Of a DNA stretch of 64,000 nucleotides, positions 2,520 through 41,522 are shown one piece after another. The notes under the pieces are model-generated. The model was not told the DNA's origin, made no database searches, and worked only from the letters and a program-made list of their open reading frames with translations. The stretch lies in NCBI GenBank assembly GCA_001664005.1, contig CP016093.1, forward strand, positions 3,835,031 to 3,899,030, written 5' to 3'. The stretch is from Rhizobiales bacterium NRL2. Its GTDB lineage: Bacteria > Pseudomonadota > Alphaproteobacteria > Minwuiales > Minwuiaceae. The translations under genes were made by a program, and so were the position numbers. Each line of letters starts with the position of its first letter. The stretch's first letter is position 1.

Positions 2520-3266
2520 ATGTTGCGATCCCTCTGCGCCGCGCTCGCGCTGTGCCTCGTCCTGCCCTTCACGTCAGAGGCGGCGGATTCCGATCCTGCC
2601 GCCGGCCTGAGCCGGGCCGAGATCGAAACCATCGTCCGCGAATACCTGATCGAACATCCGCAGGTGATCGTGGAAGCCCTGCAGAAGATGCAGGAACGCG
2701 AGGAGATGGCGCAGGCCGAGCGGACGCGCCGCATGATCATCGCCCACGCCGACCGGCTGGACGATCCGACGGGGCGCTTCGTCGCCGGCAACCCGGAGGG
2801 CGACGTCACCATCGTGGAGTTCTTCGACTACCGCTGCGGCTACTGCAAGCGGGTGATGCCGACGCTGTTCGACGAGGTCGAGCGCGACGGCAATGTCCGC
2901 CTGGTGTTCAAGGAGTTCCCGGTGCTGGGCGACGATTCGGTGCTGGCGGCCCGTGCCGGCATCGCCGCGGCGGCCCAGGGCCGCTACCGCGACATGCACA
3001 TGGCCCTGATGCAGACCCGCGGCGGGCTGACCGAGACGAAGATCATGTCGATCGCCGGCGATCTGGGCCTCGATACGGCAGAGCTCAAGCGGCAGATGTT
3101 CAGTTCCGCGACCGAGGCCGAGATTTCCGCCAACTACGAACTCGCGCAGATGCTGGGCATCCGCGGCACGCCCGGCTTCGTCATCGGGACGGAGGTGGTG
3201 CCCGGGGCCATCAGCCCCGAGCAGTTCCGTCAGTTCATCGACGCGGCGCGGAAATCGAGCGGCTGA
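2520..3266 (+). CDS. DsbA family thiol:disulfide oxidoreductase (ScsC/Com1-like)
   Basis: A secreted thioredoxin-fold oxidoreductase of 248 residues. A signal peptide (LRSLCAALALCLVLPF) is followed by a helical stretch at residues 30-70 (SRAEIETIVREYLIEHP) typical of the N-terminal domain in ScsC-like proteins, then FFDYRCGYCKR with the CGYC active site at residues 106-109, and the cis-proline loop GTPGFVI near the end. In this family the CxxC pair forms or isomerises disulfides in periplasmic proteins. AAGGAG lies 7 bases before the ATG. The 3' end overlaps the convergent DUF1289 gene by 32 bases. Confidence 0.92.
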   Translation: MLRSLCAALALCLVLPFTSEAADSDPAAGLSRAEIETIVREYLIEHPQVIVEALQKMQEREEMAQAERTRRMIIAHADRLDDPTGRFVAGNPEGDVTIVEFFDYRCGYCKRVMPTLFDEVERDGNVRLVFKEFPVLGDDSVLAARAGIAAAAQGRYRDMHMALMQTRGGLTETKIMSIAGDLGLDTAELKRQMFSSATEAEISANYELAQMLGIRGTPGFVIGTEVVPGAISPEQFRQFIDAARKSSG

Positions 3267-3447
3267 CGATCTCGACCCGGCGCGCGCCGGCGCTTTCCAG
3301 GATTTCGCGGCGGCGGTCATCGTCGACCTTGCGCCATTCGGCGATCTCCGCGCGGCTGCGGTAGCAGCCGAGACAGTAGTCGCGTCCGGGGTTCAGCTTG
3401 CAGACCGAGATGCAGGGCGAAGGGATGGCTGGCGTGTCGTCGCTCAT
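3235..3447 (-). CDS. DUF1289 small cysteine-rich protein
   Basis: A 70-residue protein with four cysteines spaced CxxxC-x8-CxxC (residues 12, 16, 25 and 28) and the sequence PSPCISVC...DYCLGCYRS...EIAEW that defines DUF1289. The four cysteines look able to bind a metal or iron-sulfur cluster, but no biochemical role is established. An upstream in-frame start at 3507 would add 20 poor residues; the ATG at 3447 fits the family. The gene is convergent with, and overlaps, the DsbA-family gene. Confidence 0.85.
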   Translation of the reverse strand: MSDDTPAIPSPCISVCKLNPGRDYCLGCYRSRAEIAEWRKVDDDRRREILESAGARRVEIVSRSISAPRR

Positions 3448-3484: not shown

Positions 3485-5047
3485 TCAATTTGACGTCCAG
3501 TCGCCAACGCGGGCGCCCTTGGCGTAACGGACCTCCAGATCCTCCAGCATGGCGAACTGGTCGTGATGATCGACCGAGGTGGCGATGATCTCCGTCCCCT
3601 GATCGCGCCAGGTCTTCAGCAGGGTACGCACCAGGAAGCGCCCGTCCTTCTGTCCGATCAGTCCCTTCAGCCGGTCGGCGGCGACCTCGATATAGGCCGA
3701 GGGCTCCGATGGCGCGAGGCCGGCGCTGTCGAGGGCGACCTCGCCCTTCAGGAAGGCGTAGAAATCGGGCACCGCTATCCGCCATTCATGGGCCGAGGGA
3801 CTGTCCAGGAAGACATCGCCCTTCCCGGCGAGCGTACCGCCGAGCGGCGCCTCCGGACGCAGGATCAGGCGTCCCGGCGAGACCTCCGCGCGGCCGATCA
3901 GCCTGCCGATCGCCTTCTGCATGTCCGGCTCGCGCAGCGCTTCGGCGCGAACCGACGCCATCACTCTCAATGAAACGCCGCGCCACAGCTTCCAGTCGCG
4001 ATGCTGCGCCAGCGCCTGTCCGATCACGGCCAGTTCCAGCTCCCTTGCGAGGGCATTGTCGCCGCCGAGCGTGAGCAAAACGTCGCTGTCGACCGGACGG
4101 CCATCGACCAGCGGATGCGCCCGGACCTGGCGGATCGCCACCGCCTGTCTTTTGAGGCTGAGAATCGGCCGGGTCTCGACCGCCATCGTTCCGGCCTTGA
4201 TCGCCTGGCGCACGGCATCCGCCAGCGCCGCCGTCTCCGAGCGGGCCTCGTCGTACCGGCGGCCGAGCCCGAAGCGCCGGAAGCCCGAGGCAAGTCGGCC
4301 GCGAAGACCGCGCGCGCCATGGCTGAGGGTCGCACGCACGGCGTCGGCGGGGAGATCGGCGCCGTCCGCCTCGATCTGTTCGGCGGCGAAGGCGTCCCGA
4401 TCCTTCACCAGGCCGGCGTCCAGCGCCGCGCCGGAAATCTCGTGAAGCATCTTCTCGGCGTCGGCGTCGCGGCCGTGGAGGATGCCGTAGAGGGCGTTGT
4501 CGAGCCGCGCGGTGCGCCGCGCGCCGCTGCGCCGGGCGTGATCCTCCACGACGCGGCTCATGCGTCCGTCGGCTTCCGCGTCCAGCCCGCCGTGAACCGA
4601 GAACATGGTGACGGACCCGTCGCCGTCCTTCAGCGTCAGCGCCGCTTCGTCGAGAAAGCCGTCGCGGTCGGCCTGTCCGTCCGGACGCGCCACCGCCTCG
4701 TCGTGTTCCCACCACTCGGCCTCGCCCGAAAGACGGTAGACGAAAAGCACCACGCCGCCCGGTTCCTCGCGGCCCGCGGGCCGGCCGACCAGCATGTACT
4801 CGCCGCCATGGCCGTCGCCACAGACCTGCGGCTCGTCGCCGCCCTGGCGGATGCCCAGCGCCACCCGCGCCATGGCTTCGGCAACCGGCGGCGGAAAGGC
4901 CCGGTCGAGCGGCTTGCGCCAGAGCTCCACCGCCGAAGCGCCGAACAGCGCCTCCACTTCGCCCGAGAGCTCGCGGATATGGTCCTCGGCGGAGAGCTTC
5001 AACGTGACCGAGGGTTTGCCCAGCCGAACATGGGGGTTTGCATTCAT
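3485..5047 (-). CDS. Signalling protein with degenerate GGDEF-like and EAL-like domains
   Basis: A 520-residue soluble protein that I read as a decayed diguanylate cyclase/phosphodiesterase. Residues 20-110 may be a PAS-like sensor. Residues 135-285 follow the GGDEF pattern, but the signature position reads ARLDNALYGIL where an active enzyme has RxGGDEF. Residues 286-520 follow the EAL pattern: ETRPILSLKRQAVAIRQVRA stands where YQPIV...YEALxR is expected, LRVMASVRAEALREPD matches the INVS block, and IATSVDHHDQFAMLEDLEV matches AEGVET...LxxLG. The metal-binding Glu of EAL and most acidic ligands are absent, so catalysis is unlikely and a scaffold or sensor role is inferred. The ATG at 5047 has GGCAGG just upstream; longer starts would run into the divergent gene at 5136. 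Confidence 0.8.
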   Translation of the reverse strand: MNANPHVRLGKPSVTLKLSAEDHIRELSGEVEALFGASAVELWRKPLDRAFPPPVAEAMARVALGIRQGGDEPQVCGDGHGGEYMLVGRPAGREEPGGVVLFVYRLSGEAEWWEHDEAVARPDGQADRDGFLDEAALTLKDGDGSVTMFSVHGGLDAEADGRMSRVVEDHARRSGARRTARLDNALYGILHGRDADAEKMLHEISGAALDAGLVKDRDAFAAEQIEADGADLPADAVRATLSHGARGLRGRLASGFRRFGLGRRYDEARSETAALADAVRQAIKAGTMAVETRPILSLKRQAVAIRQVRAHPLVDGRPVDSDVLLTLGGDNALARELELAVIGQALAQHRDWKLWRGVSLRVMASVRAEALREPDMQKAIGRLIGRAEVSPGRLILRPEAPLGGTLAGKGDVFLDSPSAHEWRIAVPDFYAFLKGEVALDSAGLAPSEPSAYIEVAADRLKGLIGQKDGRFLVRTLLKTWRDQGTEIIATSVDHHDQFAMLEDLEVRYAKGARVGDWTSN

Positions 5048-5135
5048 CCTGCCGACCTGTACCGGTATTGCGTCCGCCCCGATACTGGGCGGTAACATTG
5101 TACGATCCGTTAACCGGAGGGGAGGCCGGCACGAC

Positions 5136-6062
5136 ATGTCAGAGATCCGTATCGTCACCGAGGGACTGCGGTTCCCCGAAGGCCCCATCGCCCTGCCCGA
5201 CGGCGACGTGCTGGTCGTGGAGATCGCCGCCGGCCGGCTGACCCGCTGCCACCCGGACGGTTCGACGACCGTCGTCGCAGAGCCCGGCGGCGGCCCCAAC
5301 GGCGCCGCGATGGGCCCCGACGGCAAGTGCTATGTGTGCAACAATGGCGGCTTCCGCATCTTCGAACGCGACGGTCGCATCATTCCCCTGGATCAGCCGG
5401 ACGACTATTCCGGCGGCCGGATCGAGCGCATCGACATCGAGACCGGCGAAGTCGAGGTGCTCTACACCCATTGCGACGGCGTGGCGTTGAAGGGGCCGAA
5501 CGACATCGTCTTCGACAAGACCGGCGGCTTCTGGTTCACCGATCATGGCAAGATGCGCAAGCGCGAACGGGACACCACGGGGGTCTACTACGCCCTGCCC
5601 GACGGATCGAGGATCGTGGAGGCGATCTTTCCCTCCGACGGACCGAACGGGGTCGGGCTGTCGCCCAACGAGGACGAACTCTATGTGGCGGAGACCCACA
5701 CCGGCCGCGTCTGGGCCTATACGCTGAGCGGTCCCGGCGAGATCGCCGGCGGCCGGCGTCCCGTGCGCGGACCGCAGGGCCGGCTGCTGGTCGGGCTGCC
5801 CGGCCACCAGCTTCTGGATTCGCTCGCCGTCGACAGCGCCGGCAATGTCTGCGTGGCGACCATCCACAATGGCGGCATCACCGTCGTGCCGCCCGACGGC
5901 AGCCATGTCAGCCACGTGCCCATGCCCGACGAGATCACGACCAATATCTGCTTCGGCGGCGCGGATCTGAAAACGGCCTTCATCACGCTGAGCTCGACCG
6001 GCCGGCTGGCTGCGGTGGAATGGGCCCGGCCGGGCCTGGCGCTGAACTTCCTGAACAAGTAG
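5136..6062 (+). CDS. SMP-30/gluconolactonase/LRE family protein
   Basis: A 308-residue six-bladed beta-propeller of the SMP-30/gluconolactonase family, predicted to hydrolyse a sugar-type lactone with a bound divalent metal. The family landmarks are visible: EGLRFPEGPIALPDG at the N-terminus with the metal-ligand Glu, NGAAMGPDGKCYVCNNGGF, GPNDIVFDKTGGFWFTDHG and SDGPNGVGLSPNEDELYVAE. GGAGGGGAGG about 10 bases before the ATG supports the start. No sugar catabolic genes flank it, so the natural substrate is open. Confidence 0.9.
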   Translation: MSEIRIVTEGLRFPEGPIALPDGDVLVVEIAAGRLTRCHPDGSTTVVAEPGGGPNGAAMGPDGKCYVCNNGGFRIFERDGRIIPLDQPDDYSGGRIERIDIETGEVEVLYTHCDGVALKGPNDIVFDKTGGFWFTDHGKMRKRERDTTGVYYALPDGSRIVEAIFPSDGPNGVGLSPNEDELYVAETHTGRVWAYTLSGPGEIAGGRRPVRGPQGRLLVGLPGHQLLDSLAVDSAGNVCVATIHNGGITVVPPDGSHVSHVPMPDEITTNICFGGADLKTAFITLSSTGRLAAVEWARPGLALNFLNK

Positions 6063-10129: not shown

Positions 10130-10636
10130 ATGAGCGAGCCTGCGACCAAGGTCGACGAGAAGAAGACGAAGGATCATCAGATCATCCACGTCCCCAACAC
10201 GCTGCGCGCCAAGGTGGGCTCGGGCAGCGGCGTCGACCCGGATCTGATCAAGAAGGCCCAGGACGCCATCGACGAGATGGCGGAGGAGTTTCGCGTCTGG
10301 GCCGAGAAGGACATCATGAAGGTCCAGGAGATGGTGGCGGACACGCCGAACCAGACCGGCGATCTCGACAAGCACTATGACCGCATCTTCGGCGTCGTCC
10401 ATGACCTGAAGGGCCAGGGCGGCACCTTCGGCTATACCCTGCTGACCAGCGTCGGCGACAATCTCTGCCACTTCATCGACAATCTCTCCGCTCCGTCCGT
10501 GGATGACCTGACGGTGATCGCGCCGCATGTCGAGGCGCTGCGGGCGATCCTGAAGCACGACGTACGCGGCAGCGACGACCCCATCGGCGTGGAGATCGTC
10601 GACAGCCTGCACAAGCTGACCCAGCGCCGCCGCTGA
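10130..10636 (+). CDS. HPt-domain (histidine phosphotransfer) protein
   Basis: A 168-residue soluble protein with a C-terminal four-helix HPt domain. The phosphoacceptor is the His at residue 91 in FGVVHDLKGQGGTFGY, followed by a predicted helix (LLTSVGDNLCHFIDNL). The first 45 residues are charged and likely unstructured. HPt proteins pass a phosphoryl group between hybrid kinases and response regulators, but no cognate kinase or regulator is adjacent, so it is an orphan here. AAGGAG precedes the ATG. It lies upstream of hemA on the same strand with a 176-base gap, so it probably has its own transcript. Confidence 0.85.
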   Translation: MSEPATKVDEKKTKDHQIIHVPNTLRAKVGSGSGVDPDLIKKAQDAIDEMAEEFRVWAEKDIMKVQEMVADTPNQTGDLDKHYDRIFGVVHDLKGQGGTFGYTLLTSVGDNLCHFIDNLSAPSVDDLTVIAPHVEALRAILKHDVRGSDDPIGVEIVDSLHKLTQRRR

Positions 10637-12046: not shown

Positions 12047-12862
12047 TCAGGCGGCGCCGACGTCGAAACTCGGCCCGCCGAAACCCGCCTCCACGGGAAT
12101 GTCGATCATGCGCCGGTCGCCGCGCCGGTAGACGTGCGGCGTGACCACCACCGGCGGGTTGCGCCGGGCGTGCTCCAGTGCGTCGGCCACACTCTCCGTC
12201 CGCGCCAGCCGGACCAGGTTGAGCCGCGTGGCGAACACCATCGTGACCTGCCCGGCTTCCGCCTGGCGGATGGCCTCCCCGGGCCGGACCCAGACGCTGT
12301 CGACGGCCTCGGTGCCGTCATGGCTGGCCAAAGCCGACTGGGCCTCCGGCATTTCCGCGATGAAGAATGGCGTGTCGAAGCGTTTCGGCAGCACCGGCGG
12401 GGTGATCCAGTGGGCGAACGGCACCAGACTCCGCAGCGGAAAGCGCAGATCCTCGCGCTCGGCCATCTCCCCCATGGTGACGCGATTGGCTTCCAGGTCC
12501 GCCGCATAGCGGTCCTTCAGCTGCCCGCTTCGCGCCGCGCCAAGGGCGCTGCCATCGGCCTCCAGCGCCAGCAGCACGCCGATCTCCTCGAAGGCTTCAC
12601 GGATCGCCGCCACGCGGAAGCCGAGGGCGATGTCGTCCAGCGGTTCGGCGTCCAGTGCGCGAGAGCGGGCCCGCACATCCGAATCCTCGGGATCGACCTT
12701 GCCGCCGGGAAAGACCATCGCACCGGAGGCGAAGTCGATCTCGTGATGGCGGCGGACCATGAAGACCTCCAGCCCCTCGACCCCGTCGCGGATCAGCAGG
12801 AGGCTGCTCGCCGGCTTGGGCTTCACATGGTCGAACTTGCCGCTCAGGTCGGGACCGGACAT
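12047..12862 (-). CDS. NUDIX hydrolase (NUDT7/NUDT19-like)
   Basis: A 271-residue Nudix hydrolase. The Nudix box is present but stretched: FPGGKVDPED...AAIREAFEEIGVLL, with an insertion of about 20 residues between the GG and REAFEEIG parts, as in the NUDT7/NUDT19 and CoA-pyrophosphatase-related subgroup. It should cleave a nucleoside diphosphate linked to another group, perhaps CoA or an acyl-CoA; the true substrate is not clear. The ATG at 12862 has GGGGGAG upstream; a GTG two codons earlier is less well placed. It is convergent with hemA, only 4 bases apart. Confidence 0.85.
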   Translation of the reverse strand: MSGPDLSGKFDHVKPKPASSLLLIRDGVEGLEVFMVRRHHEIDFASGAMVFPGGKVDPEDSDVRARSRALDAEPLDDIALGFRVAAIREAFEEIGVLLALEADGSALGAARSGQLKDRYAADLEANRVTMGEMAEREDLRFPLRSLVPFAHWITPPVLPKRFDTPFFIAEMPEAQSALASHDGTEAVDSVWVRPGEAIRQAEAGQVTMVFATRLNLVRLARTESVADALEHARRNPPVVVTPHVYRRGDRRMIDIPVEAGFGGPSFDVGAA

Positions 12863-13140
12863 CCACACTCCCCCGTTTCATGTCAGGTGCGGGGAGGCTA
12901 TCGCATATCCGCCGCGCCGGGTGAAACGCTGTTTCGGCGCGGGGCCCATGACTTCCCGGCGATCTGGCATGTACCGTGCTACGTAGGGGTCTACGGCGGC
13001 GGAATCGTGACCGGGGAATGGGAAACATCTCATCTTGTGATATCCGCCTACCGCGCCAGCATGTCTAGACTGGTAACGGGCGTCATCGCGGGTCCGGCGG
13101 CAGCCGGGCCCATCGTCGCAGAAGCAGGAGGACATCCCTC

Positions 13141-15174
13141 GTGAAACGGTTCCTAATCATCGTCGCGGCCATTCTGGTCATTCTTATCGCCGCCGTGGTC
13201 GCGCTGCCATTCGTCGTGCCCAAGAGCGCCATGGTCGACTACGTGGTCGCCAAGATGGAGGAGGCGACGGGCCGGAAGGTCACCGTCGGCGGCGAGCCCG
13301 AGTTCTCGGTCTTTCCGGACGTCACCCTGTCGATCAACCAGGTCTCGCTTTCCAATTTCGAAGGCGGCTCGACCGAGAACATGGCCGAGATTCGCTCCGC
13401 CGATATCAAGGTCGACCTGATGGCGGCGCTCTCCGGCGAGGTGGTCGTCCGCCGCTTCGTGCTGGTCGAGCCTGTGATCGTCATCGAGAAGAACGCCGAA
13501 GGCCGTTTCAACTTCGATTTCGGGGGTGCCACGGCCGCCGCCGGCGACGGCGAGAAGCTGGAGCGCAGCGGCGAATCGGGCGGCGGCGACCTGGTGCTCT
13601 CGCTGGACGATTTCCGGATGGAGAACGCGACGGTGGTCTACATCGACGCCCAGACCGGTGAGCGCCACGACATCAGCGGTCTGAACACGACGATGTCCCT
13701 GCCCTCCATGTCCGGTCCCTTCGACATGACCGCGGACGCCGAATGGCGCGGGCGAAGGGTCAACATCGTGGCCCATGTCGACGACCCGTCGGCGATCACG
13801 GCGGGCCGTCAGACGGCGATCAACGCCGAGGTTTCCAGCGACGACCTGTTCTCCATCGCCTTCAACGGCGCCGCCACGGCCGGCGCCGCGCCGGAGGCCG
13901 CCGGCCGTGGCACGGTTTCCGTCGCCAATGTGGCGGAACTGCTCGCCTGGGCGGACATCGTCCTGGGTCCCGACGTCAGGCTGCCCGGCACCCTGTCGCT
14001 GGAAGGCGACATGACGGCCTCGCCGACGCGCCTGGCCATCGCCGAGGCCGCCATTCTCTTCGACAAGAACCGCATCGAGGGCTCGATCGCCGCCGAACTC
14101 TCCGGCCAGCGCCCGGCGGTCACCGCCGAGCTCACGGCCGGCGACCTGGATTTCCGCGCCTACCTGCCCGAGGGCGGCGGCGCGGCGGCGTCGGGGGGCA
14201 ACGGCGCGGCCCCGGCGGGAAGCTCCGACTGGTCCGACGACCCCATCGATCTGAGCGCGCTCGGCGCAGCGGACGTGGACCTGTCGCTCAAGGCCAGTTC
14301 GATCACGACGGGTATGCTGGATGTCGGCGCCACGGACATCGCCGTGACCGGCCGCGGCAACAGCGCCGAAGTGACGCTGCGCCAGCTCGCGCTCTACGAG
14401 GGCAACGCCACCGGCGGCGCGAAGATCGACCTGCGCGGCGCAGAGCCCGGCATGTCGGTGAAGCTGGAACTCGCCGGCGTGCAGGCGCGCCCGGCGCTGC
14501 AGCAGTTCGCCGATTTCGGCGACTTCCTCGGCACGGTGAACGCGGACTTCGATCTCACCACCCGCGGCAATACCGAGCGCAAGCTGGTCTCGGCGCTGAA
14601 CGGCGCGGGCCGGATCACGGTCACCGACGGCGCGATCATCGGCTACAATCTCGCCGCGGCGGTGCGCAATGTCTCCACCGGCGGGCTCGACATGACCTAC
14701 GACAAGTCGGAGAAGACCGACTTCGCGGAGCTGTCGGGCAGCTTCACGGCGAAGAACGGCCTGATCCACAATCCGGACCTGGCCATGAATGCGCCGCTGC
14801 TCCGGGTCACGGGATCGGGCGACATCGCCCTGCCGCCGCGCACCATCGACTACCGCGCCGTGCCGAAAGTGGTGGCCAGCCTGGCCGGTCAGGGCGGCGG
14901 CGACGACCGCGGCATCTCGGTACCGATCCTGATCAGGGGCTCCTGGGACGATCCCTCGGTGCAGCCGGACATGGAAGGCATCGTCAGGGGCGTTCTGGAA
15001 TCGCCGGTGGATGCAGCCAAGGGCGTGGCGGACACGGTCAAGAACGTCGGCGAAGGCGGCGCGGGCGCGGTCAAGGGCGTGCTCGACAGCGTGACCGGCG
15101 GCAGCGGTTCGGAGAAGGGCGATGACCCCGTCTCCGGCGCCACGAAGAAACTGAAGGGCCTGTTCGGCGACTGA
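13141..15174 (+). CDS. AsmA family protein
   Basis: A 677-residue envelope protein of the AsmA family, large inner-membrane-anchored proteins with a periplasmic body that are linked to outer-membrane lipid and protein homeostasis. The GTG start has GGAGG about 10 bases upstream. Residues 2-25 are one N-terminal membrane anchor (FLIIVAAILVILIAAVVALPF), followed by the AsmA signature (AMVDYVVAKMEEATGRKVTV, then PEFSVFPDVTLSINQVSLSN). The C-terminal AsmA_2-like part ends in GSWDDPSVQPD. The last 80 residues are glycine- and lysine-rich. The mscS-like gene follows 39 bases downstream. Confidence 0.92.
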   Translation: MKRFLIIVAAILVILIAAVVALPFVVPKSAMVDYVVAKMEEATGRKVTVGGEPEFSVFPDVTLSINQVSLSNFEGGSTENMAEIRSADIKVDLMAALSGEVVVRRFVLVEPVIVIEKNAEGRFNFDFGGATAAAGDGEKLERSGESGGGDLVLSLDDFRMENATVVYIDAQTGERHDISGLNTTMSLPSMSGPFDMTADAEWRGRRVNIVAHVDDPSAITAGRQTAINAEVSSDDLFSIAFNGAATAGAAPEAAGRGTVSVANVAELLAWADIVLGPDVRLPGTLSLEGDMTASPTRLAIAEAAILFDKNRIEGSIAAELSGQRPAVTAELTAGDLDFRAYLPEGGGAAASGGNGAAPAGSSDWSDDPIDLSALGAADVDLSLKASSITTGMLDVGATDIAVTGRGNSAEVTLRQLALYEGNATGGAKIDLRGAEPGMSVKLELAGVQARPALQQFADFGDFLGTVNADFDLTTRGNTERKLVSALNGAGRITVTDGAIIGYNLAAAVRNVSTGGLDMTYDKSEKTDFAELSGSFTAKNGLIHNPDLAMNAPLLRVTGSGDIALPPRTIDYRAVPKVVASLAGQGGGDDRGISVPILIRGSWDDPSVQPDMEGIVRGVLESPVDAAKGVADTVKNVGEGGAGAVKGVLDSVTGGSGSEKGDDPVSGATKKLKGLFGD

Positions 15175-15213
15175 GGCAGGGCAACGACAACAAGAAATCG
15201 GAGAAGCCATTCA

Positions 15214-16047
15214 ATGACGGAAATGGAAGCATCGAACATCGGTGAGTTCCTGACGGCCTACTTCATCGAGTACGGCCTCGCGGTAATCGGCGTGGTGATC
15301 ATCCTGATCGCCGGCTACTTCGCCTCCAACTGGGTCGCGCGGCTGGTGCGGGCCGGCCTGATGCGCACCGGCAAGATGGACCCGATGGTCGCGCGCTTCA
15401 CGGCGACCATCGCCCGCTACGGCGTCCTGGCCTTCGCGGTCATCGCCGCGCTCGACCAGTTCGGCGTGGAGACCACCAGCTTCGTCGCCGTGCTCGCCGC
15501 CGCCGGCTTCGCCATCGGCCTGGCCTTCCAGGGCACGCTGGGCAACCTGTCAGCGGGCGTGATGATCCTCATCTTCAAGCCGTTTCGGCAGGGCGATTTC
15601 ATCGAGGGCGGCGGCACCTCCGGCACCGTCGAAGACGTGCATCTGTTCATGACCGAGCTGAAAACGCCCGACAACGTGCAGATCATCATGCCCAACGGTC
15701 AGCTGTGGAACACCGCGATCAAGAACTACAGCTTCCATCCCACGCGGCGGCTCGACCTGCTGCTCGGGATCGGCTACGGCGCGGACATCGGCGCCGCGAT
15801 CGACGCGATCAGGGAGATGGCGAACGCCGACGAGCGCGTCCATCCCGATCCCGCCCCCATGGTGGTGGTTTCGAATCTGGGTGAGAGCTCGGTGGATCTG
15901 ACCATCCGGCTGTGGTGCAACGCCACCGACTACTGGGGTCTGAAGTGGGAATTCACCCGCGCGCTGAAGGAGAAGATGGACGAGCTGGGCGTCGAGATTC
16001 CGTTCCCGCAGCGCACCGTCCACATGGTGAAGGACGCGGCGGACTGA
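15214..16047 (+). CDS. MscS family mechanosensitive ion channel
   Basis: A 277-residue small-conductance mechanosensitive channel. Three membrane helices occupy about residues 14-110; the pore-lining helix is glycine/alanine-rich (FVAVLAAAGFAIGLAFQGTLGNLSAGVMI, split here as AAAGFAIGLAFQGTLGN). The beta-domain begins with FRQGDFIEGGGTSGTVEDV and has the MPNGQLWN motif typical of the family. It relieves turgor after a hypo-osmotic shift. It follows the AsmA gene closely and may be co-transcribed with it. Confidence 0.93.
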   Translation: MTEMEASNIGEFLTAYFIEYGLAVIGVVIILIAGYFASNWVARLVRAGLMRTGKMDPMVARFTATIARYGVLAFAVIAALDQFGVETTSFVAVLAAAGFAIGLAFQGTLGNLSAGVMILIFKPFRQGDFIEGGGTSGTVEDVHLFMTELKTPDNVQIIMPNGQLWNTAIKNYSFHPTRRLDLLLGIGYGADIGAAIDAIREMANADERVHPDPAPMVVVSNLGESSVDLTIRLWCNATDYWGLKWEFTRALKEKMDELGVEIPFPQRTVHMVKDAAD

Positions 16048-40196: not shown

Positions 40197-41522
40197 GTGC
40201 ACCATTCGGTAACTACGGGGCGGGATGATGCCGTTCGCGGGTCGGGGAACGGCGCGGCGAGGCGCGGATTGTCTGAGCACATACATGCCAGGGAGATGGC
40301 GGCGAACCAGGTGATCTTCCGCGAGGGAGAGGCCGGCGACGACGCCTACATCCTGGAGAGCGGACGGATCGAGATATCCATGGGCGAGGGCGATGCGCAA
40401 CGCGTGATCGCCGTGCTGGAGCCGGGCGAGATCTTCGGCGAAATGGCCCTGATCGCCAACGCCCCGCGTTCGGCCACCGCCACAACGATCGAGCCCTGCA
40501 CATTGCTGGTGCTGCGCCGCAACCGCCTGATGAAGCCGATCGAGACCGCCGATCCGATCATGCGGCTGACCATCCAGATGATGGTGGAGCGGCTCAACGA
40601 CGCCTCCCGCTGGAAAGCCGGCCAGCCGCTGATCAGCCAGGGCAGCGAGGCCCAGCGCCGGGCCTTCGCCGAGGTGCGCGAACTGGCGCTCCGGCGCGTG
40701 CGCACCGAACGCGAGCTGCGCCGCGCCATCGAGAAGGACGAGCTGACGCTCCACTACCAGCCGATCGTCGGGATCGCCGACGGCAGTCTGGCCGGCTACG
40801 AGGCGCTGATGCGCTGGCACCACCCCGAGCAGGGTTTCGTGCCCCCCGCGCGCTTCATCCCCCTGGCCGAGGAAAGCGGCATGGTGGTGCAGATGGGGCG
40901 CTGGGCGCTGGAGCGCGGCCTGCAGGAACACGCCGCGATCGTCGCGGTCTACCGCACCGTCCATCCCGGCCAGCCGCCGCCCTTCATCAGCATCAACGTC
41001 TCCGCCGCCCAGTTGCACGATCTTTCGGAAATCGACCGCTTCGCCGGCATCATCGAGGCCACGGGCGTCGAGCCGGATCAGATCAAGCTGGAGATCACGG
41101 AAAGCCTGATGGCCGACGACCCCGAGCATGCCGCGGAGGCCCTCGGCCGGCTCAAGGATCTCGGCGTCACGCTGGCCATCGACGATTTCGGCACCGGATA
41201 CTCCAGCCTCAGCTATCTCCATCGCTTCCCGCTGGACACGCTGAAGATCGACCGCTCCTTCGTCAGCCGCATGGACCATGACATGGCCAGCCGGCTGCTG
41301 GTGCGCGCGATCGTCGACCTCGCCGCCGATCTCGGCCTGCAGACCGTGGCCGAAGGCGTCGAGACCGAGGCGGAATACGCCGAGCTTGCCGAACTCGGCT
41401 GCGACTTCGGCCAGGGCTATCTCATGGCGCGGCCGTGCCCGGCGTCGGACCTGCGCGGTATGCTGGCGCAAGCGGGGCCGGACTGGCGCGGCTGGGGCAC
41501 GGCTCAGGTTTCCTCGGCATAG
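40197..41522 (+). CDS. Cyclic-nucleotide-binding domain fused to EAL phosphodiesterase
   Basis: A 441-residue two-part signalling protein. Residues 37-115 form a Crp-type cNMP-binding domain (VIFREGEAGDDAYILESG, then FGEMALIANAPRSAT, the phosphate-binding cassette). Residues 172-430 form an EAL domain with all key motifs: HYQPIVGIADG, YEALMRWHHP (E202), INVSAAQL, LEITES, IDDFGTGYSSLSYLH and AEGVET. So the enzyme should split c-di-GMP under control of a cyclic nucleotide. The GTG at 40197 has a poor RBS; a TTG near 40269 would still keep both domains. Its end overlaps the convergent LysR gene by 19 bases. Confidence 0.9.
   Translation: MHHSVTTGRDDAVRGSGNGAARRGLSEHIHAREMAANQVIFREGEAGDDAYILESGRIEISMGEGDAQRVIAVLEPGEIFGEMALIANAPRSATATTIEPCTLLVLRRNRLMKPIETADPIMRLTIQMMVERLNDASRWKAGQPLISQGSEAQRRAFAEVRELALRRVRTERELRRAIEKDELTLHYQPIVGIADGSLAGYEALMRWHHPEQGFVPPARFIPLAEESGMVVQMGRWALERGLQEHAAIVAVYRTVHPGQPPPFISINVSAAQLHDLSEIDRFAGIIEATGVEPDQIKLEITESLMADDPEHAAEALGRLKDLGVTLAIDDFGTGYSSLSYLHRFPLDTLKIDRSFVSRMDHDMASRLLVRAIVDLAADLGLQTVAEGVETEAEYAELAELGCDFGQGYLMARPCPASDLRGMLAQAGPDWRGWGTAQVSSA

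Follow-up and report, generated by a model that had tools for sequence, protein, structure and literature searches.

Described proteins with degenerate GGDEF and EAL domains

Degenerate GGDEF-EAL proteins are already known, and they differ in whether they bind c-di-GMP. According to the account in PMC10333796, c-di-GMP binding by inactive EAL domains is decided by the ExLxR motif, and YdiV and STM1697 neither cleave nor bind the dinucleotide. YdiV has lost eight of ten conserved residues and binds FlhD, and the passages of PMC3510510 that describe it report no c-di-GMP binding. BluF (YcgF) of E. coli is described in PMC3509220 as having lost residues, neither cleaving nor binding c-di-GMP and antagonizing the repressor BluR, and active relatives as well as intermediate forms are reported there from other bacteria. 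LapD is reported to bind c-di-GMP with a KVL form of the EAL motif, in which the first Glu is Lys, so the ExLxR rule is not absolute (PMC3032553).

Here, we describe P0001, a protein of the alphaproteobacterial genus Minwuia (family Minwuiaceae). The gene lies in genome G000, within a 64 000 nt stretch of DNA that was analysed as a whole (the window). Judged by sequence, the P0001 lineage keeps three domains (PAS-like, GGDEF-like and EAL-like), with both active sites dead and without ExLxR. YdiV and STM1697 share with P0001 an EAL barrel that has lost most catalytic residues, and are described as working by protein contact without c-di-GMP binding, to which we liken P0001 by analogy; unlike P0001, they are EAL-only, enterobacterial and FlhD-binding (PMC3510510, PMC10333796). 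The degenerate EAL protein BluF, as described, acts by partner contact and, like the P0001 lineage, has active relatives and intermediates, but it carries a BLUF light sensor instead of PAS, has no GGDEF part and has a known partner, BluR (PMC3509220). In CsrD both GGDEF and EAL are degenerate, as in P0001, and the protein is listed as non-binding; it differs in keeping an ExMxR form of the motif and in being a transmembrane HAMP protein that acts on small RNAs (PMC10333796, PMC3032553). FimX and LapD also consist of tandem dead GGDEF and EAL domains, but reportedly keep enough of the pocket for c-di-GMP binding (PMC3032553). ZMO1055 of the alphaproteobacterium Zymomonas mobilis shares PAS, degenerate GGDEF and EAL with P0001, but is described as a phosphodiesterase (PMC10333796). 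Among the titles listed by searches of the open literature, in which one paper names both Minwuia and c-di-GMP, none describes the P0001 lineage.

Conservation of P0001 in Minwuia

The P0001 gene has an ATG start at 5047 and a stop codon at 3485–3487.

3485..5047, minus strand: P0001 gene, stop codon included, encoding a 520-residue PAS-like / GGDEF-like / EAL-like protein

An earlier note, made from the sequence alone, had given the correct coordinates for this protein and no strand. It had also held that the frame is intact and still under selection, and that both catalytic domains have been worn down to scaffolds; our follow-up supports this picture and refines it on the ages of the two losses and on c-di-GMP binding. 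Open P0001 orthologues, without a single internal stop, are present in all seven Minwuia genomes (G000 and six others), and the block QKDGRFLVR occurs in 7/7 proteins. A scan of genome contigs gave six loci, five of them 35–37% identical and the sixth a half-eroded Minwuiaceae homologue.

The dN/dS ratio was 0.115 between G000 and G004, and 0.042, 0.073, 0.077 and 0.101 in the other close pairs (G001/G002, G002/G003, G001/G003 and G005/G006). The three parts of the protein, taken separately in five pairs, gave values of 0.026–0.204. These ratios, far below 1, indicate purifying selection on P0001 in the close pairs. Wider pairs within the second Minwuia clade gave 0.159–0.209. Between the two clades, P0001 is only 35–36% identical, with dN of ~0.7, dS of 1.2–1.4 and dN/dS of 0.49–0.60, values so near saturation that selection is hard to measure there; it is perhaps relaxed. 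The combination of low identity between clades and low dN/dS inside them leads us to view P0001 as a protein that changes fast between clades and is tightly held within each.

Domain architecture and predicted fold

Profile and fold comparisons point to a three-domain architecture for P0001.

4730..5017, minus strand: PAS-like domain, residues ~11–106 (VIA-align to PAS structures; hhalign to bridging family)
4262..4660, minus strand: GGDEF-like domain, residues ~130–262 (pLDDT ~74–91; hhalign via bridging family)
3512..4219, minus strand: EAL-like barrel, residues 277–512 (Pfam PF00563, hhalign, domain-only model)

EAL was the sole Pfam family found in P0001. PF00563 matched residues 277–512 with 45.2 bits (E 9.4e-12) against a cut-off of 31.3, making this the weakest of the eight EAL domains in the genome (131.8–258.7 bits for the other seven); hhalign of the EAL part against the genome's own EAL domains gave 98.2%. 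Since P0001 passes the EAL cut-off, annotation could count it as a phosphodiesterase. Pfam PAS had no match in P0001 itself, with matches below threshold in three homologues, and Pfam GGDEF (PF00990) had none even with the limit set at E 10. Comparison of the middle part with eight canonical GGDEF domains of the same genome by hhalign gave nothing (0.1%). An NCBIfam scan returned one match far under its cut-off (12.6 of 1600 bits), and phmmer with P0001 alone against PDB sequences returned chance matches only (best E 0.41).

The link to GGDEF runs through a bridging family of alphaproteobacterial proteins (alignment A3, described below). By hhalign, P0001 as a whole matched this family at 99.6% (E 1.1e-23), and the parts matched one by one in the same domain order, with 93.8% for PAS, 97.1% for GGDEF and 96.9% for EAL. 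The middle part of the bridging family in turn matched the canonical GGDEF domains of P0001's own genome at 97.4%, so that homology of the P0001 middle part to GGDEF was found in two steps, via the bridging family, together with the fold.

The predicted structures are consistent with this assignment. In VIA-align comparisons the PAS-like part superposed on the ThkA PAS domain 3a0s with Z 11.3 (rmsd 2.2 over 91 residues) and on 3fc7, whose title does not mention PAS, with Z 13.7 (rmsd 2.0 over 96). A first AlphaFold model of full P0001, built from seven sequences, had a mean pLDDT of 63.3 and a pTM of 0.37. Its best Foldseek match was the PAS-GGDEF-EAL part of PA0861 (E 4.8e-14), tandem GGDEF-EAL proteins matched too, and residues 289–520 aligned to EAL domains with Z up to 13.5 (VIA-align). 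A second model, of residues 255–520 alone (pLDDT 65.6, pTM 0.63), is predicted with only middling confidence to form an EAL barrel. It matched the FimX EAL domain 7lkq with Z 15.5 (rmsd 3.8 over 238 residues), a top score tied with many EAL domains, the active enzymes DosP and PdeA among them. YdiV was absent among the 50 matches listed by the fold searches, which says nothing about likeness to YdiV. Pocket geometry is not to be judged on models of middling confidence made from seven sequences. As far as they go, the models suggest a PAS-GGDEF-EAL fold, with both the EAL barrel and the GGDEF fold that the earlier reading of this protein called for, and in profile searches no other family outscored EAL; the GGDEF part alone had no direct family match.

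Loss of catalytic and ligand-binding residues

4478..4510, minus strand: ARLDNALYGIL, residues 180–190, replaced GGDEF motif (GGDEF to DNALY; alignments)
4115..4129, minus strand: QVRAH, residues 307–311, in the place of the lost ExLxR (MAFFT alignment)
3752..3772, minus strand: VPDFYAF, residues 426–432, DDFGTG remnant whose second Asp is the sole retained catalytic residue (alignments)
3557..3586, minus strand: IATSVDHHDQ, residues 488–497, AEGVET remnant with Glu replaced by Thr (alignments)
3497..3526, minus strand: YAKGARVGDW, residues 508–517, remnant of the QGY segment with Gln replaced by Lys (alignments)

Work on RocR reportedly defined eight catalytic EAL residues (E, N, E, D, D, K, E and Q). 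Counted on the MAFFT alignment, the second Asp is the only one kept in all seven Minwuia species, which is not the complement of an active phosphodiesterase. In P0001 the Glu, Leu and Arg of ExLxR are all replaced, and the contacts made by the Gln of QPI, N, E, K and the Gln of QGY are replaced in 7/7 species. When HMMER aligns profile A1 to Bd1971, N, both Asp, the QG Gln and the Glu residues of ExTE and AE fall at the same positions; around the Lys site, which is gapped, the two alignments diverge, and neither has a conserved Lys. By these alignments, P0001 has lost seven of the eight catalytic residues together with the ExLxR ligand motif. In the middle part, the GG(D/E)EF of diguanylate cyclases is replaced by DNALY.

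The motif assignments first made from the sequence alone hold. Alignment with relatives confirms ARLDNALYGIL at the GGDEF site, the EAL signature is absent from the alignments, and IATSVDHHDQ aligns with AEGVET-type sequence. The INVS-like block is present in the form LRVMASV, with S standing where N was expected.

A bridging family of putative alphaproteobacterial phosphodiesterases

With a limit of E 0.001, profile A1, made from the Minwuia proteins and the homologue in genome G008, matched 128 of the class's 385 genomes, four Minwuia genomes among them; no more than three candidates were scored per genome, and the weaker matches often span only the EAL or the PAS part. The bridging family was represented by 28 rows: 26 distinct genes outside Minwuiaceae for which a locus was listed (L009 and L014–L039, with L022 and L009 counted once as one gene; the set includes a few near-copies), the homologue in genome G007 and a further copy next to L083. 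Many alphaproteobacterial families are represented. From their sequences, we take the members to be PAS / degenerate-GGDEF / EAL phosphodiesterases; we found no name for the family.

All eight catalytic EAL residues are kept in 28/28 rows, against one in the Minwuia protein, and GG(D/E)EF is kept in 0/28, which marks the members, by sequence, as EAL phosphodiesterases whose GGDEF domain has long been dead. The replaced GGDEF segment is shared with P0001, and a His follows it in 25/28 bridging rows and in all eight Minwuia and G008 rows. Pfam found EAL in 21/21 A3 members scanned and GGDEF in 6/21. A tblastn search of plasmids with one bridging member gave Azospirillum as the best five matches (29.6–32.5% identity), and 23–29% identity for the other 15 of the best 20 of at least 5000 matches. 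The Azospirillum plasmid genes that resemble the family are annotated 'EAL domain-containing protein' or 'GGDEF domain-containing phosphodiesterase'.

In an analysis of neighbours at 32 loci, bridging-family genes lay near genes that we take to be dapD- and dapE-like in nine, and adjoined a PAS-GGDEF gene (named by eye) in seven. Neither neighbour cluster contains a Minwuia locus, so they do not help with the function of P0001. At the seven loci L069, L076, L078, L079, L080, L081 and L084, the cluster gene directly follows an intact bridging-family gene; the three cluster genes read (L078, L080 and L084) have a canonical GGDEF part by eye, and a DUF2336-like gene (by eye) comes next at six of the seven. 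These loci perhaps represent a cyclase-phosphodiesterase module conserved in Alphaproteobacteria.

Graded loss of the EAL site in Minwuiaceae

Among the Minwuiaceae homologues, the alignments reveal a graded series of catalytic loss. The G007 and G008 proteins come from two further genera. The G007 protein has 8/8 catalytic EAL residues, the G008 protein 3/8 (the EAL Glu and both Asp) and the Minwuia proteins 1/8 in all seven genomes. Pfam EAL scores fall in the same order, from 203.5 bits (G007) through 95.2 (G008) to 45.2, 43.1 and 33.3 (the three of seven Minwuia proteins scanned), as do scores against profile A3: 627.6 bits over the full length for G007, 264.7 for G008 and at most 189.1 in any of the seven genomes of Minwuia, whose eroded protein is itself a weak match. 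The G007 homologue was missed by searches with P0001 and with profile A1, and was found only with A3. Nine of the best A3-matched loci in Minwuia were examined and none is an intact copy; by score all are ordinary EAL or GGDEF-EAL proteins, for which the canonical EAL profile (279–350 bits) exceeds the bridging-family profile (176–213 bits), the reverse of the G007 gene (175 against 632 bits).

The G008 and Minwuia proteins share the replacement of the QPI Gln by Arg, and both are without the ExLxR Arg, N, the ExTE Glu, Lys, the AE Glu and the QG Gln. These common losses would fit an initial phase that both lineages went through, with further loss in Minwuia afterwards. The two sites differ in the age of their loss: GGDEF is already replaced in all 28 bridging-family rows, where the EAL site is intact, and the EAL site is lost in Minwuiaceae.

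G008 and Minwuia group together in both trees (support 100/99 and 96), a grouping for which the tool flags a possible long-branch effect; the Minwuia stem is very long (3.9 and 4.9 changes per column), and the composition of the G000 row was flagged as unusual. G007 falls outside this group in the trees, and holding Minwuiaceae together was not rejected (p-AU 0.189). An unrooted tree with flagged long branches separated three ordinary EAL proteins from the bridging family plus Minwuia with support of 100; support was 18.6 for the branch that unites the bridging family to the exclusion of Minwuia. The G007 gene sits in a different neighbourhood, and it may therefore be a homologue rather than a strict orthologue of P0001.

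Few lineages show such steps of loss side by side, although intermediates have already been described for BluF. Minwuiaceae hold intact, half-eroded and fully eroded forms of one three-domain protein, the last under selection, and the series offers a testable route from a signalling enzyme to a scaffold or a new receptor. The value of the P0001 lineage lies in this series and in what the kept pocket may do.

A few kb from the half-eroded homologue in G008, locus L063 encodes two similar tandem proteins of 412 and 416 residues (12658–13896 and 14133–15383, plus strand), whose Pfam EAL matches stay below threshold (16.4 and 19.0 bits against 31.3). From their sequences they are apparently a separate lineage of eroded EAL proteins.

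Possible function of P0001

Nearly all of the active site has been lost, yet selection preserves P0001, so the protein probably works by binding partners and not by catalysis. On balance, we favour, with a probability of roughly 0.62, a PAS-controlled pseudoenzyme that derives from an alphaproteobacterial PAS / degenerate-GGDEF / EAL phosphodiesterase and acts by protein contact. Such a protein would neither make, cleave nor bind c-di-GMP. Its PAS domain would still take in a signal, and the message would reach the EAL-like barrel by way of the GGDEF-like domain; the barrel would then touch a protein partner, either a transcription factor or another protein of the c-di-GMP network, in the manner of BluF or YdiV.

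The best placed of the alternatives, though we consider it unlikely, is that the barrel pocket has been rebuilt for a different small molecule, which is now the signal. Of 11 positions that formerly served catalysis or ligand binding, seven do not vary among the seven Minwuia species, compared with 76 invariant columns out of 241 in the EAL part (hypergeometric P 0.026), and in windows of ±3 residues around those positions 29/64 columns are invariant compared with 47/177 elsewhere (P 0.005); both P values are only indicative because the rows are related. The set fixed in 7/7 species is Arg, Ser, Arg, Pro, Asp (retained), Glu and Thr; among the new residues, Arg stands both at the QPI Gln and at a catalytic Glu. 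In the YdiV crystal structure, as described, a groove holding phosphate and glycerol is still present (PMC3510510). However, the pocket positions are the ends of barrel strands, which would be conserved for packing anyway, and one of the seven invariant positions is the retained Asp. We regard the fixed replacements as a weaker hint, no more than suggestive. Somewhat more doubtful is the specific proposal that the rebuilt Minwuia pocket binds a different, metal-free, anionic ligand, a messenger-destroying enzyme having become a sensor, with G007, G008 and Minwuia as the living steps.

Slightly less probable again would be a FimX- or LapD-type receptor, without catalytic activity but with an EAL-like barrel that continues to bind the dinucleotide. 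FimX EAL domains (7lkq, 4fou and 4fok, Z 15.3–15.5) are among the top matches of the domain-only model, tied with active DosP and PdeA, and profile A1 finds FimX just under Bd1971; this likeness of fold says nothing about the ligand. FimX and LapD are dead GGDEF-EAL proteins too, and LapD is described as binding despite the Lys in place of the EAL-motif Glu (PMC3032553). In P0001, however, the motif credited with deciding binding (PMC10333796) reads Q-V-R-A-H, with Leu and Arg lost besides Glu, and the other contacts are replaced in 7/7 species. Replacement of ExLxR and of the contacts beside it (Gln, Asn, Glu, Lys and Gln) makes c-di-GMP binding unlikely on the sequence, and the least likely of the three options raised for this protein at the outset, namely that it binds c-di-GMP, binds partners or has lost nucleotides.

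A role in sequestering or tuning the cell's other GGDEF and EAL enzymes through mixed dimers, in place of action on an output protein, strikes us as improbable. Besides those of P0001, the genome does encode seven EAL and nine GGDEF domains, and the GGDEF/EAL proteins of E. coli are described as forming an interactome (PMC5635695), but surfaces for mixed dimers cannot be judged on the present models. Finally, despite fast divergence between the Minwuia clades (35–36% identity and dN/dS 0.49–0.60, against 78–81% identity for the neighbouring SMP-30 protein), we set aside decay of a gene about to be lost as very improbable, as it is largely refuted by dN/dS of 0.04–0.12 in five close pairs, low in all three parts; full-length open frames in 7/7 genomes and retained blocks like QKDGRFLVR also speak against it.

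Genomic neighbourhood of P0001

The P0001 gene lies between an SMP-30 gene and a DUF1289 gene.

5048..5135, no strand: divergent intergenic region of 88 bases shared with the SMP-30 gene (arrangement in 7/7 Minwuia loci)
5136..6062, plus strand: SMP-30/gluconolactonase family gene, divergent neighbour (Pfam PF08450, 166.5 bits)
3235..3447, minus strand: DUF1289 gene, downstream on the same strand, 37 bases past the P0001 stop (Pfam PF06945, 69.6 bits)

The divergent pairing in 7/7 loci suggests that the SMP-30 gene may be a target of P0001 or under shared control with it; that P0001 itself controls the gene would be a guess. The DUF1289 gene is possibly co-transcribed with P0001. The G008 homologue has other neighbours, but a DUF1289-like gene (by eye) is adjacent to it in convergent orientation.

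Elsewhere in the window, a small HPt (histidine-phosphotransfer)-like protein is encoded at 10130–10636 (plus strand) beside a 5-aminolevulinate synthase-like gene, both named by eye. The best EAL domain of the genome (L046; 258.7 bits, 8/8 catalytic residues) also lies in the window, at 40710–41435 on the plus strand. The EAL domain at L052 (G000:C1:475332-476018) scores 131.8 bits and keeps 6/8 catalytic residues, in a protein of ~380 residues that may resemble TipF.
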